Positions 2,280 to 56,155 of a stretch of DNA of 64,000 bases are shown here, piece by piece. Below the pieces are notes generated by a model. It was not told the origin of the DNA. It saw only the letters and a program-made list of their open reading frames with translations, and did no database searches. The stretch lies in contig CP047880.1 of NCBI GenBank assembly GCA_009911715.1, positions 744,001 through 808,000 of the forward strand. The letters are read 5' to 3'. The first letter of the stretch is position 1. Each line of letters opens with the position of its first letter. A program made the translations under genes and the position numbers. The stretch comes from Methanomassiliicoccaceae archaeon DOK (GTDB taxonomy: Archaea; Thermoplasmatota; Thermoplasmata; Methanomassiliicoccales; Methanomethylophilaceae).

Positions 2280-3614
2280 TCACACGAACATCGCCATGTA
2301 CGCCGGCAGATAGACGATCCCGTTCTCGACGGAGAGGTCCTTCGAGTGAATCACGTATGACTGTCCGATCCTCTTCCCGAATCTTCTGCGGAAGTCGTCC
2401 AGGGATTTGTGGTCGCGGCTGCGGTTGGAGGACTTCACCTCGACCGGACAGATCCTTCCGTCTCTTCTGATGAGGAAATCTATCTCCATCTGTCCATCCG
2501 GGTCGTTGCGCCCTCTCGAGTAGAAGAACAGTCTGTCGCCGAGCGAGACCAGGGTCTGTGCAACGACGTTCTCCATCACCATTCCCTCGTTGACTCCGAT
2601 CCCGTTGAGGAGGACGTCCTTGTAGAGTTCGTTCTCTAGGTATCTGCGGTCCGAATAAGAATGGGTCACCAGGAGCCCAGTGTCCGCCATGTAGCATTTC
2701 AATGTGGGCCTGTCGCTGTAAACGGAGAGTCCTATCTCTGGATTGTTGGAGTTCAGGCAGAGGTTAACGATGCGGCCGTCCACAAGCCGCATGAACGAAT
2801 CTTCGTACTCCCTCATCCTCGCGTTCTTGTCGATGGTGGACAGTGTGAACACCTTGTCCTTTCTGTTCAGTTCTTCCGGGATGCGGTCGAATATGTTGCG
2901 GACATGGTTGGTGTTCCCGCCGGGCCACTTTCCGATATCCTCCCTGTACAGGCCCAGGATGCGTCTCTTGACGCGATCGACCTGTTCGAAGTCCCTGGAC
3001 TCCATATATGCTGCTACGGCCTGTGGCATCCCTCCCACGAGCATGTACTGTTTGAACAGTCTCATCATCTTCTTGTGGACCGCCTCTCCGACAGGAGATC
3101 TCCTTTCGAAGCATTCTCTTATCATCTCCAGAGCCTGGTCCTCCCCCATGGCCCACAGGAACTCCTCGAAGTCCATGGGACACATCTCCACTCTGTCCTC
3201 TTCGGACGGTATGAGGATGGCGGAAGACTTGGTCTTTATCGAGACGAGGGATCCGGTTTCGATGTAATCGTATCTGCGGTCTTTCACCAGATGTTTGATG
3301 AGTTGTCTCGCACGGAGGTAGTTCTGGATCTCGTCGAAGATGATCAGGGACTCCCTCTCATACAGTTTTGTGCTGTAGATGGCCGACAGGCTGCTGAACA
3401 GAAGGTCGAAGTCGCTGTGGTATTGCTCGAAGGCGTTGATGACATCGTCGTTCGTGAAATCCACTACGATGTAGCTCTTGTATTCGTTCCTGCCGAACTC
3501 CTCGGCGATGAAGGTCTTGCCGACACGGCGCGCACCCTCGATCAGGAGCGCGGATTCCCCCTGCCCTTTTTTCCATTGAAGGAGTTCTGCGTAGACCTTC
3601 CTCTTCATCGTCAT
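2280..3614 (-). CDS. AAA+ ATPase with DUF4143/nuclease-like C-terminus
   Basis: A 444-residue protein. Residues 24-34 hold the Walker A motif (EGARRVGKT) and about 88-96 the Walker B (SLIIFDEIQ). The middle has the GGMPQAV signature of this family. The C-terminal part carries E-x-D-F-L-I then CPVEVKSS, the D...E-x-K layout of a PD-(D/E)XK fold. The family (AAA_14 + DUF4143) is abundant in archaea and gut bacteria; its function is not settled. A close paralogue lies at 52.6-54.2 kb. The start matches the paralogue's MRRK start region. Upstream, in the same frame, there are decayed 11-codon repeats interrupted by TAA (3677-3675) and TGA (3626-3624). Confidence 0.88.
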   Translation of the reverse strand: MTMKRKVYAELLQWKKGQGESALLIEGARRVGKTFIAEEFGRNEYKSYIVVDFTNDDVINAFEQYHSDFDLLFSSLSAIYSTKLYERESLIIFDEIQNYLRARQLIKHLVKDRRYDYIETGSLVSIKTKSSAILIPSEEDRVEMCPMDFEEFLWAMGEDQALEMIRECFERRSPVGEAVHKKMMRLFKQYMLVGGMPQAVAAYMESRDFEQVDRVKRRILGLYREDIGKWPGGNTNHVRNIFDRIPEELNRKDKVFTLSTIDKNARMREYEDSFMRLVDGRIVNLCLNSNNPEIGLSVYSDRPTLKCYMADTGLLVTHSYSDRRYLENELYKDVLLNGIGVNEGMVMENVVAQTLVSLGDRLFFYSRGRNDPDGQMEIDFLIRRDGRICPVEVKSSNRSRDHKSLDDFRRRFGKRIGQSYVIHSKDLSVENGIVYLPAYMAMFV

Positions 3615-3645: not shown

Positions 3646-3764
3646 TCACGATTTACAGGGTTATGTTTCCTGGATTAATCACGAAAAACATAGTTATGAA
3701 ACCAGAGATTTTCACGAAAAACAAAGTTACAAACGGATGATTTCTCACGAAAAACAGGGTTATG
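3646..3764. repeat. 33-bp-period repeat array upstream of the first AAA+/DUF4143 gene
   Basis: Four 20-bp cores begin at 3646, 3679, 3712 and 3745, exactly 33 bp apart. On the plus strand they read TCACGAAAAACA(T/A/G)(A/G)GTTAT(G), with the first copy slightly diverged (TCACGATTTACAGGGTTATG). The 13-bp intervals between cores differ. The minus-strand TATA-like CTTATATCG (about 3787-3795) would place transcription start just before the array, so the array would lie in the 5' leader of the ATPase mRNA. In the ATPase frame the units read as 11-residue repeats of the type NPVFRE, with two stop codons. It may be a decayed coding extension or a set of binding sites. Confidence 0.85.
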
Positions 3765-41830: not shown

Positions 41831-41883
41831 ATACACCTATAACGAAATCTTCCACTGGAAAAAATACACCTATAACGAAATCT
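41831..41883. repeat. Orphan 33-bp-period repeat pair
   Basis: The 20-mer ATACACCTATAACGAAATCT occurs at 41831-41850 and, unchanged, at 41864-41883: the same 33-bp period and 20-bp core length as the arrays beside the two AAA+/DUF4143 genes. No ATPase gene is present here. On the minus strand one frame reads DFVIGV every 11 codons, resembling EILFGD in the array at 54 kb. Confidence 0.8.
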
Positions 41884-50927: not shown

Positions 50928-52607
50928 ATGTCCGACCAGATCGAGGATACGATCAGGAAATTCGCTCTTCAGAACGCCGTCTTCTTCAAAGGCAAGGCCA
51001 ACCCCAAGGCCGTCGTCGGGAAGATCCTCGGGGGATGCCCCGAACTCAGGTCCAAGGCCGCCGAGATCACCCCTCTGATCAACCAGATCGTGGAGGAGGT
51101 CAACGCCATGGGGCTGGAGGCGCAGACGAAGGCCCTGAGCGAGATGGACTCCTCCATGCTGGTCAAGGAGAAGAAGGAGCGCCACTACGAGCTCCCGGAG
51201 CTCAAGAACGTGGACGGCCGGGTCGTCATGCGCATCGCGCCCGGCCCCTCCGGCCCGCTGCACATCGGCCACACGAGGGTCTCCGTACTCAACGACGAGT
51301 ACGTCAAGAGGTACGGAGGGGACCTCGTCCTCAGGTTCGAGGACACGAACCCCGAGAAGATCGACCCCGACGCCTACGACATGATCCCCGAGGACCTGGA
51401 CTGGCTCGGCGTCAAATGCAACAGGACCTACATCCAGTCGGACAGGTTCGAGATGTACTACGACTACACGAGGAAGCTCCTGGAGATGGGCAAGGCCTAC
51501 GTGTGCACATGCGACGCGGACCACTGGAGGGAGCTCAAGGAGCACAGGCAGGCCTGCCCGTGCCACGACCTCCCGGTCGAGGAGCAGCTGGACAGGTACG
51601 ACAGGTTCCTGGCCGGGGAGTACGAGGAGGGCAAGGCCGTCGTGGTCGTCAAGACCGACCTCAACCACCCCAACCCCGCCGTGAGGGACTTCGTCGCCCT
51701 GAGGCTCGTCTCCCATCCCCACCCCAGGACCGGCGACAGGTACGTCGCGTACCCGATGATGAACCTCTCAGTGGCCATCGACGACCACGAGATGGGCATG
51801 ACGCACGTCATCCGCGGGAAGGACCACCTCAACAACACCCTCCGCCAGGAGTACATCTTCGACTACTTCGGATGGAAGAAGCCCGAGTACTATCACTACG
51901 GGCTCGTCAACATCCCCGACACCGTCCTGAAGACCTCCATCATCAAGGGCGAGATCCAGAACGGGACGTACTCCGGATGGGACGACGTCAGGACCGGGAC
52001 CGTCCGCGCCATGGAGCGCAGGGGCATCAGGCCCGAGGCGATCCGCAGGTACTGGGTCGAGGCCGGCATGAAGGCCGTGGACATCCAGTTCTCCTGGGAC
52101 AACCTGTACGGCATGAACAGGGACATCATCGACGCCGAGAGCAACAGGTACTTCTTCGTCCGCGACCCGGTCAGGTACGACATCGACGGCGTCGACGTGA
52201 TCGAGGGCTCCGCCCCCAAGCATCCCGACCACCCCGAGAGGGGCGACAGGGTCTACAGGCTGGAGGACCCCAGGACCGTGTTCCTCGCAGGCGAGGACTC
52301 CAAGCTGTTCCAGGAGGCCGAGAGGATCAGGCTCAAGGACCTGTGCAACCTCGAGTACGGCCTCCCCGCCAGGTACGCTGGGAACGACGTCTCCATACTC
52401 AAGCAGGGCGTCCGCGCCGTGCAGTGGGTCGGAAGGGACTCCGAGGAGGCGACCCTGCTGATGCCCGACGGAGAGGTCTGGTCCGGTCTGGCCGAGAGGG
52501 CACTCATGGACGAGCCCGGCGAGATGGTCCAGCTGGAGAGGATCGGGTTCGCCAGGATCGAGAAGAGGGAGCCCGGAAAGGTCTCCATGGTGTTCGCGCA
52601 CCGCTGA
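50928..52607 (+). CDS. gltX: Glutamyl-tRNA synthetase, archaeal type
   Basis: A 559-residue non-bacterial GluRS. The HIGH motif is PSGPLHIGHTRV (about 106-117); FEDTNPEKIDPDAYD follows; LKTSIIKGEI holds the KMSKS-equivalent loop region; the C-terminal half is the eukaryal/archaeal beta-barrel anticodon-binding type (DSKLFQEAERIRLKDLCN). It charges tRNA-Glu, and in archaea also tRNA-Gln for later amidation. The ATG at 50928 is 24-25 bp from the TATA-like TGTAAAATAC, so the mRNA is leaderless. Confidence 0.97.
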   Translation: MSDQIEDTIRKFALQNAVFFKGKANPKAVVGKILGGCPELRSKAAEITPLINQIVEEVNAMGLEAQTKALSEMDSSMLVKEKKERHYELPELKNVDGRVVMRIAPGPSGPLHIGHTRVSVLNDEYVKRYGGDLVLRFEDTNPEKIDPDAYDMIPEDLDWLGVKCNRTYIQSDRFEMYYDYTRKLLEMGKAYVCTCDADHWRELKEHRQACPCHDLPVEEQLDRYDRFLAGEYEEGKAVVVVKTDLNHPNPAVRDFVALRLVSHPHPRTGDRYVAYPMMNLSVAIDDHEMGMTHVIRGKDHLNNTLRQEYIFDYFGWKKPEYYHYGLVNIPDTVLKTSIIKGEIQNGTYSGWDDVRTGTVRAMERRGIRPEAIRRYWVEAGMKAVDIQFSWDNLYGMNRDIIDAESNRYFFVRDPVRYDIDGVDVIEGSAPKHPDHPERGDRVYRLEDPRTVFLAGEDSKLFQEAERIRLKDLCNLEYGLPARYAGNDVSILKQGVRAVQWVGRDSEEATLLMPDGEVWSGLAERALMDEPGEMVQLERIGFARIEKREPGKVSMVFAHR

Positions 52608-52617
52608 AACGCTCAAA

Positions 52618-52638
52618 GACGGGGGTCCATCCCCCGTC
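52618..52638. terminator. Bidirectional hairpin between gltX and the AAA+ gene
   Basis: GACGGGGG-TCCAT-CCCCCGTC gives a perfect 8-bp stem with a 5-base loop. It sits between convergent genes and overlaps the stop codon of the AAA+ gene. Confidence 0.7.
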
Positions 52639-54187
52639 ACAGGAAAATCGCCATGTACAACGGCAGGTAGACCGTCCTGCCGTCACTATCGATATTCTTC
52701 GGATGGAGCACGTACCCGTCACCGGTCTGGCGGGCGAACTTTCTCATGAACCGGTCAAGAGACACATGCATCCTGCTCCTGGATGATTTGACCTCCACCG
52801 GGCAGACCTTTATCCCCCTCCTGATGAGGAAGTCGATCTCCATGTTGTCGTCCGGGTCGTCACCGTATCTGGAGTAGAAGTACAGCCTGTGTCCGCTGGC
52901 GACCAGCATCTGCGCGACCAGGTTCTCGGTGATCATGCCCTCGTTGATCCCAAGCTTTCCGGTCAGCACGGCCTTGTACAGCGGATTGTCGGTGTACGGA
53001 CCGTCACCGAACGCCATCGTTATCAGCAGGCCCGTGTCGGCCATGTAGTACTTGACCTTGCTGTCGTCGAGGCTCAGGGCAAGGCCAACGTTGGGGTCCA
53101 CGGAGTTGAAGCAGGGGTTGACGATCATTCCGTCGGTCAGCCATAGGAAAGCATCGGAGTACCTCCGTGATTTCGCTTTTTTGTTGATCGATGTGATGTT
53201 GAACTTCTTCTCTTTCTTGGACAGCTGCGAAGGTATGGTCTCGAAGACCTCCCGGACCTTCGTCTGGTACTGTTCGGCGAACTTGCCTATGTCGTTCCTA
53301 TACAGCTGGAGGATGTCCCTCTTCACATCATCGGTCAGGCGGAAGTCCTTGGTGTTCACATAGGTCGAGACTGCCTGGGGCATCCCGCCCACGAGCATGT
53401 ACTGTCTCAGAAGGTTCATCGTGGATCTGTGGACGGCCTCGCTTACCGTTTTGCGCTCTTCGAAGCATCTCTTGATCAGTGGAACCGTCTCGGTGTTCCC
53501 CATCGCCCATAAGAATTCCTCGAAGTCCATGGGATGCATGTAGATGTGCTTCTCCTCCGAAGGGATCAAGATGTTGGAGACATTGGTTTTTATAGAGATG
53601 AGGGAACCCGTCTCGATGTAATCGAATCTGCGGTCCTTCACCAGTCTTTTTATCATCTGTCTCGCCTTGGGGTAGAGCTGCACCTCGTCGAAAATGACGA
53701 GGGATTCACGTCTGTACAACGTGACTCCGTAGATGGCCGACAGCTCGTTGAAGAAAAGGTCGAGGTCCAGGCTGTCGTTCTCGAACACATCAATGACCGT
53801 CGGGGGCGCATCGTTGAAGTCTATCCATAGGAAAGAGCGATATTCATTTCTCGCGAACTCCTCCACGACGAAACTCTTGCCGACACGACGGGCGCCGTCT
53901 ATAAGCACGGCGGTCCTGCCATCGCTGGCCATCTTCCATTGCACAAGGTCGTCGTAGATCTTCCTCCTCATGTAGGGCGGTCTGTCATCACTATTGGGGG
54001 AATTCATGATTCTGTCACCAAATAGGATTTCAGGATATATGGTTTTGTCACCAAATAGAATTTCAGACACATTCGATTTGTCACCAAATAGGATTTCAGA
54101 ACTGGTCAATCTGTCACCAAATAGGATTTCAGAACTGGTCAATCTGTCACCAAATAGGATTAAGAAGAATCGGAAGTCCGACGTCAT
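52637..54187 (-). CDS. AAA+ ATPase with DUF4143, with N-terminal 11-residue repeats
   Basis: A 516-residue paralogue of the protein at 2280-3614. Walker A is IDGARRVGKS (about 97-106), Walker B SLVIFDEVQ, then GGMPQAV and the nuclease-like E-x-D-F-L-I...CPVEVKSS. Starting at ATG 54187 (GGAGG 11 bases upstream), the first 60 residues contain five ILFGD units every 11 residues, encoded by the 33-bp array. If translation began at 54007 or at the MRRK start used by the paralogue, the array would be untranslated leader. The open frame through five units favours translation; the paralogue, with stops in the same place, argues against a need for it. Confidence 0.85.
   Translation of the reverse strand: MTSDFRFFLILFGDRLTSSEILFGDRLTSSEILFGDKSNVSEILFGDKTIYPEILFGDRIMNSPNSDDRPPYMRRKIYDDLVQWKMASDGRTAVLIDGARRVGKSFVVEEFARNEYRSFLWIDFNDAPPTVIDVFENDSLDLDLFFNELSAIYGVTLYRRESLVIFDEVQLYPKARQMIKRLVKDRRFDYIETGSLISIKTNVSNILIPSEEKHIYMHPMDFEEFLWAMGNTETVPLIKRCFEERKTVSEAVHRSTMNLLRQYMLVGGMPQAVSTYVNTKDFRLTDDVKRDILQLYRNDIGKFAEQYQTKVREVFETIPSQLSKKEKKFNITSINKKAKSRRYSDAFLWLTDGMIVNPCFNSVDPNVGLALSLDDSKVKYYMADTGLLITMAFGDGPYTDNPLYKAVLTGKLGINEGMITENLVAQMLVASGHRLYFYSRYGDDPDDNMEIDFLIRRGIKVCPVEVKSSRSRMHVSLDRFMRKFARQTGDGYVLHPKNIDSDGRTVYLPLYMAIFL
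54014..54164. repeat. 33-bp-period repeat array at the 5' end of the second AAA+/DUF4143 gene
   Basis: Cores of the form GTCACCAAATAGGATTTCAG begin at 54014, 54047, 54080, 54113 and 54146, all exactly 33 bp apart; the last is cut short by divergence. One core has A for G (54047 unit). The intervals 54100-54112 and 54133-54145 are identical, so the last full unit is a recent duplicate; other intervals differ. On the minus strand each unit encodes S/P-E-I-L-F-G-D-R/K plus variable residues. Confidence 0.9.
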
Positions 54188-54238: not shown

Positions 54239-56155
54239 TCAGAACGCCTGCAGGAGGAGGTTCGTCGCCGTTCCCAGGAGGATGGCCACGACAATGGACA
54301 GGACGCTGACCCCGACGGTCTCCTTCCAGCCGATCTCCCTCCACATGGTGATGAGGGTCGCGACGCACGGCATGTACACGGCCATCACGACACCGAACAC
54401 GACGAACTGGTCGGGGGTCATGAACGCCTCCAGCGCGACCCCGCCTGCTAGAATCTGCAGCATCCCGAGGGCCATCTCCTTCCTCAGGATGCCCACGATG
54501 AACGCTATGGAGCACACGGCGGGCAGCCCGAGCATGCCGACGATCACGGGCGAGAGCGGGTCGACGATCACGTCGAGGAGCTCGTACTGGAGCAGCACCT
54601 CCACGACGATGGAACCCACCACCAGCAGAGGGAAGGCGATGTAGAAGAAGTCCTTGATCCTGTACCAGGTCTTGAACAGGACGTTCTTGGCGCTCGGGAC
54701 CTGGAGGTCGGGGAGCTCCATCGCCAGGTTGCTGGGCTCGTACTTCATGAACCTGTTCATCAGGACCCCCGTGACCACGGCGAGGCACACGAGCATCACC
54801 AGGATCCCGAACGCGTAGACGATGCCGGAGTAGCTTCCAGTGGCCCCCATGATGATGGCCATCTGGGCGGAGCAGGGCACGGCCATGACGATCATCGAGG
54901 AGAGGATGACCTTCTCCCTGCGGGACTGGACGGTGCGGACCGCCATGATGGCGGGCACGTTGCATCCGAGTCCGACGATGATGGGTATGAACGACCCCCC
55001 GTGGAGGCCGAAGTGGTGCATGGTCCTGTCGAGGAGGACGACGGCCCTGGTCAGGTACCCGGAGTCCTCCAGTATCCCCAGTATGATGTAGAACACCATG
55101 ATGTACGGGATGACCAGGGACATGATCGCCTGGATGCTCCCGTCTATGCCGGTGAGGACGGCGGTCCAGAACTCGCTGTCGCCGCCCAGGTCGATGATGG
55201 CGGTGCCGACCACCGCCTCGTAGACGGAGGAGACGACCCCGTCCAGGAACGACCCCACGTAGACGATGGTCGTGAGGATCACCAGGCAGACCGCCAGCAG
55301 GATCGGTATGCCGGTGACCGGGGTGATCATCACGTCGGATATCCTGTCGGCCAGTGACGGCTTGGTGTCGCTCTCGGAGACCACGTCGCTAACGATGTTC
55401 TCGGCCTCGGCGTACCTGGACGAGGCGATGCCGACCGCCAGGCTCTGGCCGGTTCCGTCCCTGTAGAGCTTCTTCATGACGGCCACGGTGTGCTTCAGGT
55501 CCGTGCCGATCATCTCGTCGAAGGGCTCCGACTCCTCCAGGAGCTTGACGGCGACCCCGCGCTTGTTGAACTTGAGGTTGTCGGGGAGGCCGTCCTCCAG
55601 TGCGACGATGGCCTTCTCGATGTCGGGCATGTACTCGACCCTGAACCCGGAGGCCCTGGCCTTTCCCTCGCAGACGGCGTCCGCGAGGGCGTCGACCCCT
55701 TCCGAGGTCTTGGAGGACACGGGCATCACCGGGACGCCGAGGATTCCGGAGAGGGCGTCGATGTCGATCCTGTTCCTCTTCCTGGCCTCGTCGATCTTGG
55801 TGAGCGCGATGATTGTGGGGAGTCCCAGCTCCAGTGCCTCAAAGCAGAGGACGAGGCTGCTGACCAGGTTGGTGGCGTCGGCGACGAGGATGACGGTGTC
55901 GTTGCGGCCCTCCCAGAGGTCCCTGAGTACGACCTTCTCGTCGTCGGAGTTCCCGGACATGCTGTAGGTTCCGGGGAGGTCGTGGACGCTGACGGTCTTG
56001 CCGTTCCTCGTTACCACTCCCTCGTCGAACTCCACGGTCGTGCCGGGATAGTTGGACGATATGACCCCCACGCCGGTCAGGCGTGTGAAAAGGGATGACT
56101 TGCCCACGTTAGGCTGTCCTACCAGGGCTACCTTGAATGTTTTCCCATGAGCCAA
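54239..56155 (-). CDS. feoB: Ferrous iron transporter FeoB, second type
   Basis: A 638-residue FeoB, shorter than the one at 4039-6249. G domain: G1 GQPNVGKS (about 13-20), G3 DLPG, G4 TKID, G5 SSKTS. Gate motifs in the membrane part are VGLGCNVPAIMAVRTVQS and AVPCSAQMAIIMG, a different subclass from FIPCGAKLPV of the first FeoB. It may be specialised for another metal level or another divalent metal. It is directly downstream of dtxR (18-bp gap) and has no feoA of its own; the regulator carries a fused FeoA-like domain. Confidence 0.95.
   Translation of the reverse strand: MAHGKTFKVALVGQPNVGKSSLFTRLTGVGVISSNYPGTTVEFDEGVVTRNGKTVSVHDLPGTYSMSGNSDDEKVVLRDLWEGRNDTVILVADATNLVSSLVLCFEALELGLPTIIALTKIDEARKRNRIDIDALSGILGVPVMPVSSKTSEGVDALADAVCEGKARASGFRVEYMPDIEKAIVALEDGLPDNLKFNKRGVAVKLLEESEPFDEMIGTDLKHTVAVMKKLYRDGTGQSLAVGIASSRYAEAENIVSDVVSESDTKPSLADRISDVMITPVTGIPILLAVCLVILTTIVYVGSFLDGVVSSVYEAVVGTAIIDLGGDSEFWTAVLTGIDGSIQAIMSLVIPYIMVFYIILGILEDSGYLTRAVVLLDRTMHHFGLHGGSFIPIIVGLGCNVPAIMAVRTVQSRREKVILSSMIVMAVPCSAQMAIIMGATGSYSGIVYAFGILVMLVCLAVVTGVLMNRFMKYEPSNLAMELPDLQVPSAKNVLFKTWYRIKDFFYIAFPLLVVGSIVVEVLLQYELLDVIVDPLSPVIVGMLGLPAVCSIAFIVGILRKEMALGMLQILAGGVALEAFMTPDQFVVFGVVMAVYMPCVATLITMWREIGWKETVGVSVLSIVVAILLGTATNLLLQAF

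Follow-up and report, generated by a model that had tools for sequence, protein, structure and literature searches.

What is an evenly spaced array of direct repeats doing at the 5' end of an ATPase gene, when the reading frame of that gene stays open right through it? The question arises in a 64,000-nt stretch of the genome of Methanomassiliicoccaceae archaeon DOK (contig CP047880.1, positions 744,001 to 808,000; here called the window), whose minus strand carries the gene under study, an AAA+ ATPase gene preceded by five 33-bp units. An initial annotation had read these units as 11-residue ILFGD repeats at the ATPase N-terminus, while allowing that selection on their spacing might act on the protein, on DNA binding or on both. 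Our analysis indicates that the array is probably a non-coding operator, private to its gene, which lies in the ATPase promoter, is bound by the ATPase's own winged helix and controls the ATPase's own gene.

The window array and its ATPase

The five units start at 54014, 54047, 54080, 54113 and 54146, a period of exactly 33 bp, and the sequence bears out the 20-bp core (GTCACCAAATAGGATTTCAG) and the 13-bp spacers with one duplication that had been described for them. The four full cores are 95–100% identical in pairwise comparison, and the fifth unit is truncated and retains only the first 16 of the 20 core bases. The spacers are 31–46% identical, except that those of units 3 and 4 are exact duplicates. 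Such core and spacer identities are the pattern of sites repeated along the DNA while the spacers between them drift. The array has a tandem score of 85, where 30 dinucleotide shuffles of the same region gave at most 9 and the highest score anywhere else in the window is 30. The cores, as read from the sequence, and the TATA-like box among them are as follows:

54014 to 54033, minus strand: core 1, closest to the gene (GTCACCAAATAGGATTTCAG on the plus strand)
54047 to 54066, minus strand: core 2, with a single substitution (AGAATT)
54080 to 54099, minus strand: core 3
54113 to 54132, minus strand: core 4, which together with its spacer is an exact duplicate of unit 3
54146 to 54161, minus strand: core 5, 16 of 20 bases
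54035 to 54040, minus strand: TATA-like ATATAT within the gene-proximal spacer, between units 1 and 2, a putative archaeal TATA box

Both domains of the window ATPase, AAA_14 (PF13173) and DUF4143 (PF13635), score above the Pfam cut-off, and the protein matches PDLC04786, a PADLOC model for PDC-S01 (E 1.1e-111). PDC-S01 is a PADLOC phage-defence candidate in which an AAA+ ATPase is fused to a PD-(D/E)XK domain (PMC12988326), a domain make-up that the window ATPase shares; it is reported to rank fourth in frequency among the defence systems of prokaryotes, and most such candidates are stated to be without experimental validation (PMC12988326). Residues G43, K44, E390, D392, E405 and K407 (window protein numbering) are invariant or nearly so. 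The parts of the gene are:

52637 to 54007, minus strand: clade-B AAA_14/DUF4143 ATPase (PDC-S01), 456 amino acids (aa) from the 54007 start
53873 to 53896, minus strand: Walker A motif GARRVGKS
53042 to 53275, minus strand: predicted winged-helix region (aa about 245–322), likely the DNA-reading part, by analogy with a clade-A model
52778 to 52855, minus strand: PD-(D/E)XK motif region of DUF4143 (E390, D392, E405 and K407 conserved)

Arrays accompany the ATPase family at a clade-fixed period

The clades are distinguished by their P-loops, which are GPKWCGKT in clade A, GxRQxGKT or GARRVGKT in clade B (which includes the window gene) and TLITGARQVGKTTLC in clade C, a third AAA_14/DUF4143 clade; the clade A ATPase matches a different PDC-S01 model of PADLOC. 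The archaeon's own genome has ten DUF4143 genes, nine of them in clades A and B, and all nine have an upstream repeat signal at the clade period with a score of at least 13 (at least 15 in seven). In a genus sample of 92 genes (50 of clade A, 28 of clade B and 14 of clade C), an upstream tandem score of at least 15 is found at 63 of the 78 clade A and B genes, compared to 53 of 2724 control windows (1.9%) from the same loci (odds ratio 212, P about 3e-81); one of the 14 clade C genes reaches this score. The period follows the clade: it is 23/24 in 45 of the 50 clade A genes and 32/33 in none of them, 32/33 in 24 of the 28 clade B genes and 23/24 in none, and neither in any of the 14 clade C genes.

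An independent scan with a clade-A profile, covering 75 testable genes of Firmicutes, Spirochaetes, Bacteroidetes, Actinobacteria and archaea that were not chosen for repeats, found arrays at 67, every one at lag 23 or 46 (controls 111/3866). Thirteen of 18 plasmid-borne relatives reach a score of 16 or more with lags of 22/23 or 32/33; their periods are 33 in Segatella, 32 in Vibrio, Acinetobacter and Fusobacterium, 23 in Bacteroides and Collinsella, and 22 in an alphaproteobacterium, and the Segatella copri plasmid ATPase is 50% identical to the window protein. The initial annotation had proposed a tie between such arrays and this gene family, to be abandoned if relatives showed no association; the association is much stronger and wider than it supposed, and evenly spaced private promoter arrays are a general pattern of PDC-S01 genes in archaea and bacteria.

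Some PDC-S01-type ATPases with arrays (L249-L266) are carried by plasmids, in bacteria of the human gut and of the sea. Upstream repeats, with a period of 28/29 or about 15, are also present in the neighbouring DUF234 ATPase family of the genus (L285, L289, L290, L293 and others), where 10 of 25 genes have a score of 15 or more; a second ATPase family may therefore follow the rule.

Coding potential of the array

If the array were selected for a peptide, an ILFGD repeat of 11 residues at the N-terminus of the ATPase, its units should keep the frame. The ATPase frame on the minus strand is indeed open through the window array and reads ILFGD, as first reported, 33 is a multiple of 3, and three clade B arrays of period 33 are open in frame. 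A plus strand frame is open through the array as well, however (LSPNRIS), so the open ATPase frame is weak evidence for coding. Furthermore, the periods of 23 in clade A and 32 in clade B break the reading frame, so selection for an ILFGD peptide is not supported, and the ATPase frame is open through just 3 of 22 clade B and 5 of 41 clade A arrays (8 of 63 altogether). The comparison of synonymous and nonsynonymous change between units is uninformative here, because there is only one substitution among the window cores.

The gene has two candidate start codons:

54005 to 54007, minus strand: ATG (MNSPNSDD), with GGTGA 7 nt upstream
53969 to 53971, minus strand: ATG (MRRKIYD), aligned with the starts of clade B relatives

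The clade B relatives begin M-x-R-K-x, for which the window equivalent in the alignment is the ATG at 53971, and their aligned starts lie downstream of the array. Both candidates, 54007 and 53971, are also downstream of it, and judging from the sequence the ATPase likely starts at one of them, beyond the array. In addition, the TATA-like box is inside the window array, and a second clade B ATPase in the window has its array outside the open reading frame:

2283 to 3608, minus strand: second clade B ATPase, 56% identical to the window ATPase
3646 to 3762, minus strand: its 33-bp array, with its own core TAACCCTGTTTTTCGTGA, outside the open reading frame

We therefore rejected a coding repeat on the basis of the periods (23, 24, 32 and 33), the frames and the start codon alignment, and consider it very unlikely; the ILFGD reading is probably incidental. 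Of the selection that had been proposed to act on the spacing, the part concerning DNA fares better, as the spacing is constrained and DNA binding is plausible.

Position of the arrays at the promoter

The clade A unit consists of roughly a 12–15-bp core and an 8–11-bp spacer, while the clade B unit of the window has a 20-bp core and a 13-bp spacer. Judged by −10-like boxes in bacteria and the putative TATA box in the window, the repeats adjoin or overlap the core promoter. Bacterial arrays end a median of 38 bp before the ATG. In 37 of 49 genes, versus 45% in shuffles, a −10-like hexamer is present between array and ATG, mostly no more than 10 bp from the array (the only control against which this enrichment was measured). 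The bacterial array would then cover the −35 region, with transcription mostly starting downstream of it. In the window the corresponding element is the putative TATA box, and by the usual archaeal spacing ATATAT at 54040–54035 would place the transcription start near 54013.

These positions also bear on the possibility that the repeats act as RNA, as elements of a transcribed leader or as small RNAs. Transcribed tandem repeats of constant size are known in Bacillus (PMC8161180), but there is no Rfam match at the window array, and most of the array would be absent from the mRNA because the bacterial −10-like boxes lie downstream of it; we find an RNA-level function the hardest of the alternatives to credit. 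A palindromic unit common to all arrays was also considered and rejected: the clade A unit is not palindromic and that of clade B is weakly so, and a model with one dimer per unit is therefore not general.

Private cores and the winged helix

The core sequence varies from gene to gene, and within arrays the cores are conserved while the spacers drift. No credible second site was found in the archaeon's genome for the cores of three of its arrays, and privacy holds for three of the four arrays examined, the exception being the core of ATPase L016, ATAGGTGT. For the window core there is no other close site in its own genome (the closest other match differs at 2 of 16 positions and the remainder at 3, a level of match that also arises in a reversed-pattern control), and as a 33-bp pair it is absent from 146 other genomes of the order. 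A dispersed genomic repeat was rejected on this lack of a close second site at home and of a 33-bp pair in the 146 other genomes.

The cores change along with the proteins. Vibrio and Acinetobacter ATPases that are 70% identical have a common core, TATGCGCATAAAA, and different spacers, and in the orthologues L012 and L091 (87% identical) the core is altered in all units together. Core similarity is correlated with protein identity (Mantel r 0.37 in clade A and 0.33 in clade B; 0 of 999 permutations were as high). Because co-inheritance alone could give such a correlation, overall identity was removed from the test, and the residual core signal then lies at aa 241–301 of L014 (max-statistic P of 0.015 with all pairs included and 0.006 with pairs above 42% identity). 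In a clade A model (pLDDT 94) these residues form the winged helix, which lies between the AAA+ and PD-(D/E)XK domains.

Gain, loss and solo arrays

The window ATPase gene stands alone, in a 1.89-Mb contig, and is flanked by housekeeping genes:

50928 to 52607, plus strand: glutamyl-tRNA synthetase-like gene (gltX)
54239 to 56155, minus strand: feoB-like gene

In four relatives, including the closest (whose gltX is 95% identical), gltX adjoins feoB without array or ATPase; array and ATPase gene are gained or lost jointly. Unit number changes too, as had been thought possible, and does so by whole units: the Vibrio plasmid alleles L264 and L267 have three units and L268 and L269 have one, a difference of exactly 64 bp (two 32-bp units) between genes whose ATPases are 98–99% identical. 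The accompanying suggestion that such changes alter the ATPase N-terminus finds no support.

An array without an ATPase gene is also present in the window, upstream of cysE, between that gene and a PAPS-reductase-like gene:

41831 to 41883, minus strand: solo two-unit 33-bp array AGATTTCGTTATAGGTGTAT, no ATPase, with a core common to the array of the distant ATPase L016

A relative (G097; L306, L317) has a solo array at the same place and also a 79% identical ATPase of the L016 type that has this core, and other species with the same PAPS-reductase-like/cysE gene order have neither array nor ATPase there. The solo array may be a trans target or the remnant of a lost cassette. A further ATAGGTGT array of 33-bp period occurs at L307 (contig C14 of G102), with no L016-type ATPase match within 1.5 kb in that incomplete genome.

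The empty gltX–feoB sites of four relatives, the patchy distribution and the solo array at one locus in two genomes could also be explained if array and gene formed a one-gene mobile cassette with the array as its end or attachment site. But the array is one-sided, with no copy at the other end of the gene, no target duplication or recombinase was seen, and the core evolves with the protein, so that a mark of mobility seems very improbable to us. A CRISPR array was rejected as well: here the spacers are 13 bp long and some are duplicated and the neighbours are gltX- and feoB-like, whereas CRISPR arrays have repeats of ~23–50 bp, unique spacers of similar length, and cas genes.

Proposed mechanism and relation to known systems

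We propose that the winged-helix domain of each ATPase reads the units of its array as binding sites and that ATPase subunits or dimers would fill consecutive units, with the geometry of the protein in each clade setting the spacing (23/24 bp in clade A and 32/33 bp in clade B). The ATPase so bound would control its own transcription, most likely by repression. Under this proposal the paralogues, of which there are up to 20 per genome, would not cross-regulate, because each gene has its own core.

Several observations weigh against this operator model. The residual signal at aa 241–301 is modest, and for pairs above 50% identity it is not significant; model confidence is low in the winged-helix region of the window's own ATPase; and co-inheritance, too, predicts a genome-wide correlation of motif and protein. 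Nor is the array indispensable, because some Vibrio alleles have a single unit and several clade B genes have a weak array or none, and the L016 core recurs with its 33-bp period as a solo array away from the gene. Finally, in archaea the effect of an array directly upstream of TATA could be activation instead of repression.

The closest folds suggest another possible role. The matches are to archaeal AAA+ ATPases, DNA-bound Orc1/Cdc6, and the nucleases Card1, Cdn1 and Can2, and no chain in the PDB was matched by sequence with the clade A profile. In the archaeal AAA+ ATPases 2qen and 2fna and in Orc1/Cdc6, which binds repeated origin boxes, an AAA+ domain is followed by a winged helix as in the array ATPases; the latter, on the other hand, add a C-terminal PD-(D/E)XK domain and have no replication context, and the likeness is one of fold only (TM about 0.2–0.5). 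Iteron arrays of plasmid replicons are direct repeats, with a period of ~2–3 helical turns, directly upstream of the gene of a winged-helix DNA-binding protein. The arrays described here are alike in being direct repeats of 2–3 helical turns upstream of the gene of a predicted DNA-binding protein, but they differ in that the window gene is a lone chromosomal one and each paralogue has a private core, and the ATPase has no match to a Rep initiator family in Pfam and NCBIfam. The ATPase might assemble on the array, with transcriptional control not the chief purpose, to form an oligomer, a store or a mark of self, in the manner of iterons, centromeres or ORB-like sites, and its nuclease would act elsewhere once triggered. 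The iteron-like period, close to 2 or 3 helical turns, the Orc1/Cdc6-like AAA+ plus winged-helix fold, the PD-(D/E)XK motif residues with the Card1/Cdn1/Can2 matches, the private cores and the solo array with an ATPase core elsewhere are all compatible with such a tag or loading site. The core promoter position in both bacteria and archaea is, however, what an operator requires, and we saw no replicon feature in the surroundings of the window gene, so we regard a tag or loading site as unlikely, although less so than the alternatives considered above.

The operator model has its nearest experimental parallel in RptR, for which three direct repeats mediate repression of its own defence-island promoter (PMC12255303). 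There, as we propose here, a locally encoded protein binds direct repeats that lie at a defence-locus promoter, and the RptR repeats overlap the −10 box. RptR differs in being dedicated to repression, with repeats of 9 bp and a single conserved site (PMC12255303), whereas the presumed reader of the present arrays is the effector ATPase, the units are 22–33 bp long and each gene has its own core. Subirana and Messeguer described bacterial tandem repeats of constant size and variable sequence, including some of 20–23 nt, and suggested that a protein polymerises on the DNA (PMC8161180). Their best-described class is 52 nt long and is found in Firmicutes. Their repeats are like the present arrays in having a fixed size and unrelated sequences, and the word ATPase does not occur in their text. 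The accessible parts of the literature that names PDC-S01 make no mention of gene-private upstream arrays with a clade-fixed period. We found no description of such arrays in the literature searched, the coverage of which is incomplete, and an earlier publication cannot be excluded.

A private array with a clade-fixed period gives the PDC-S01 family a testable candidate DNA target, and the combination of array and ATPase could serve as a signature for finding PDC-S01 candidates. With more than 120 members here, the arrays and their ATPases offer a large collection of natural protein/DNA specificity pairs, and they may account for part of the unexplained bacterial tandem repeats of constant size and variable sequence. 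A more speculative idea, which we hold to be rather doubtful, is that PDC-S01 is a system for telling self from non-self DNA. The private array would then be an address (a mark of self and an assembly platform) that co-diversifies with the winged helix as compatibility groups do and is part of the defence itself, and solo arrays would be its trans members.

Other features near the array

One minor feature lies between feoB and the array:

54169 to 54182, minus strand: weak terminator-like hairpin with a T run

By chance, 1.3 such hairpins are expected in the region scanned.
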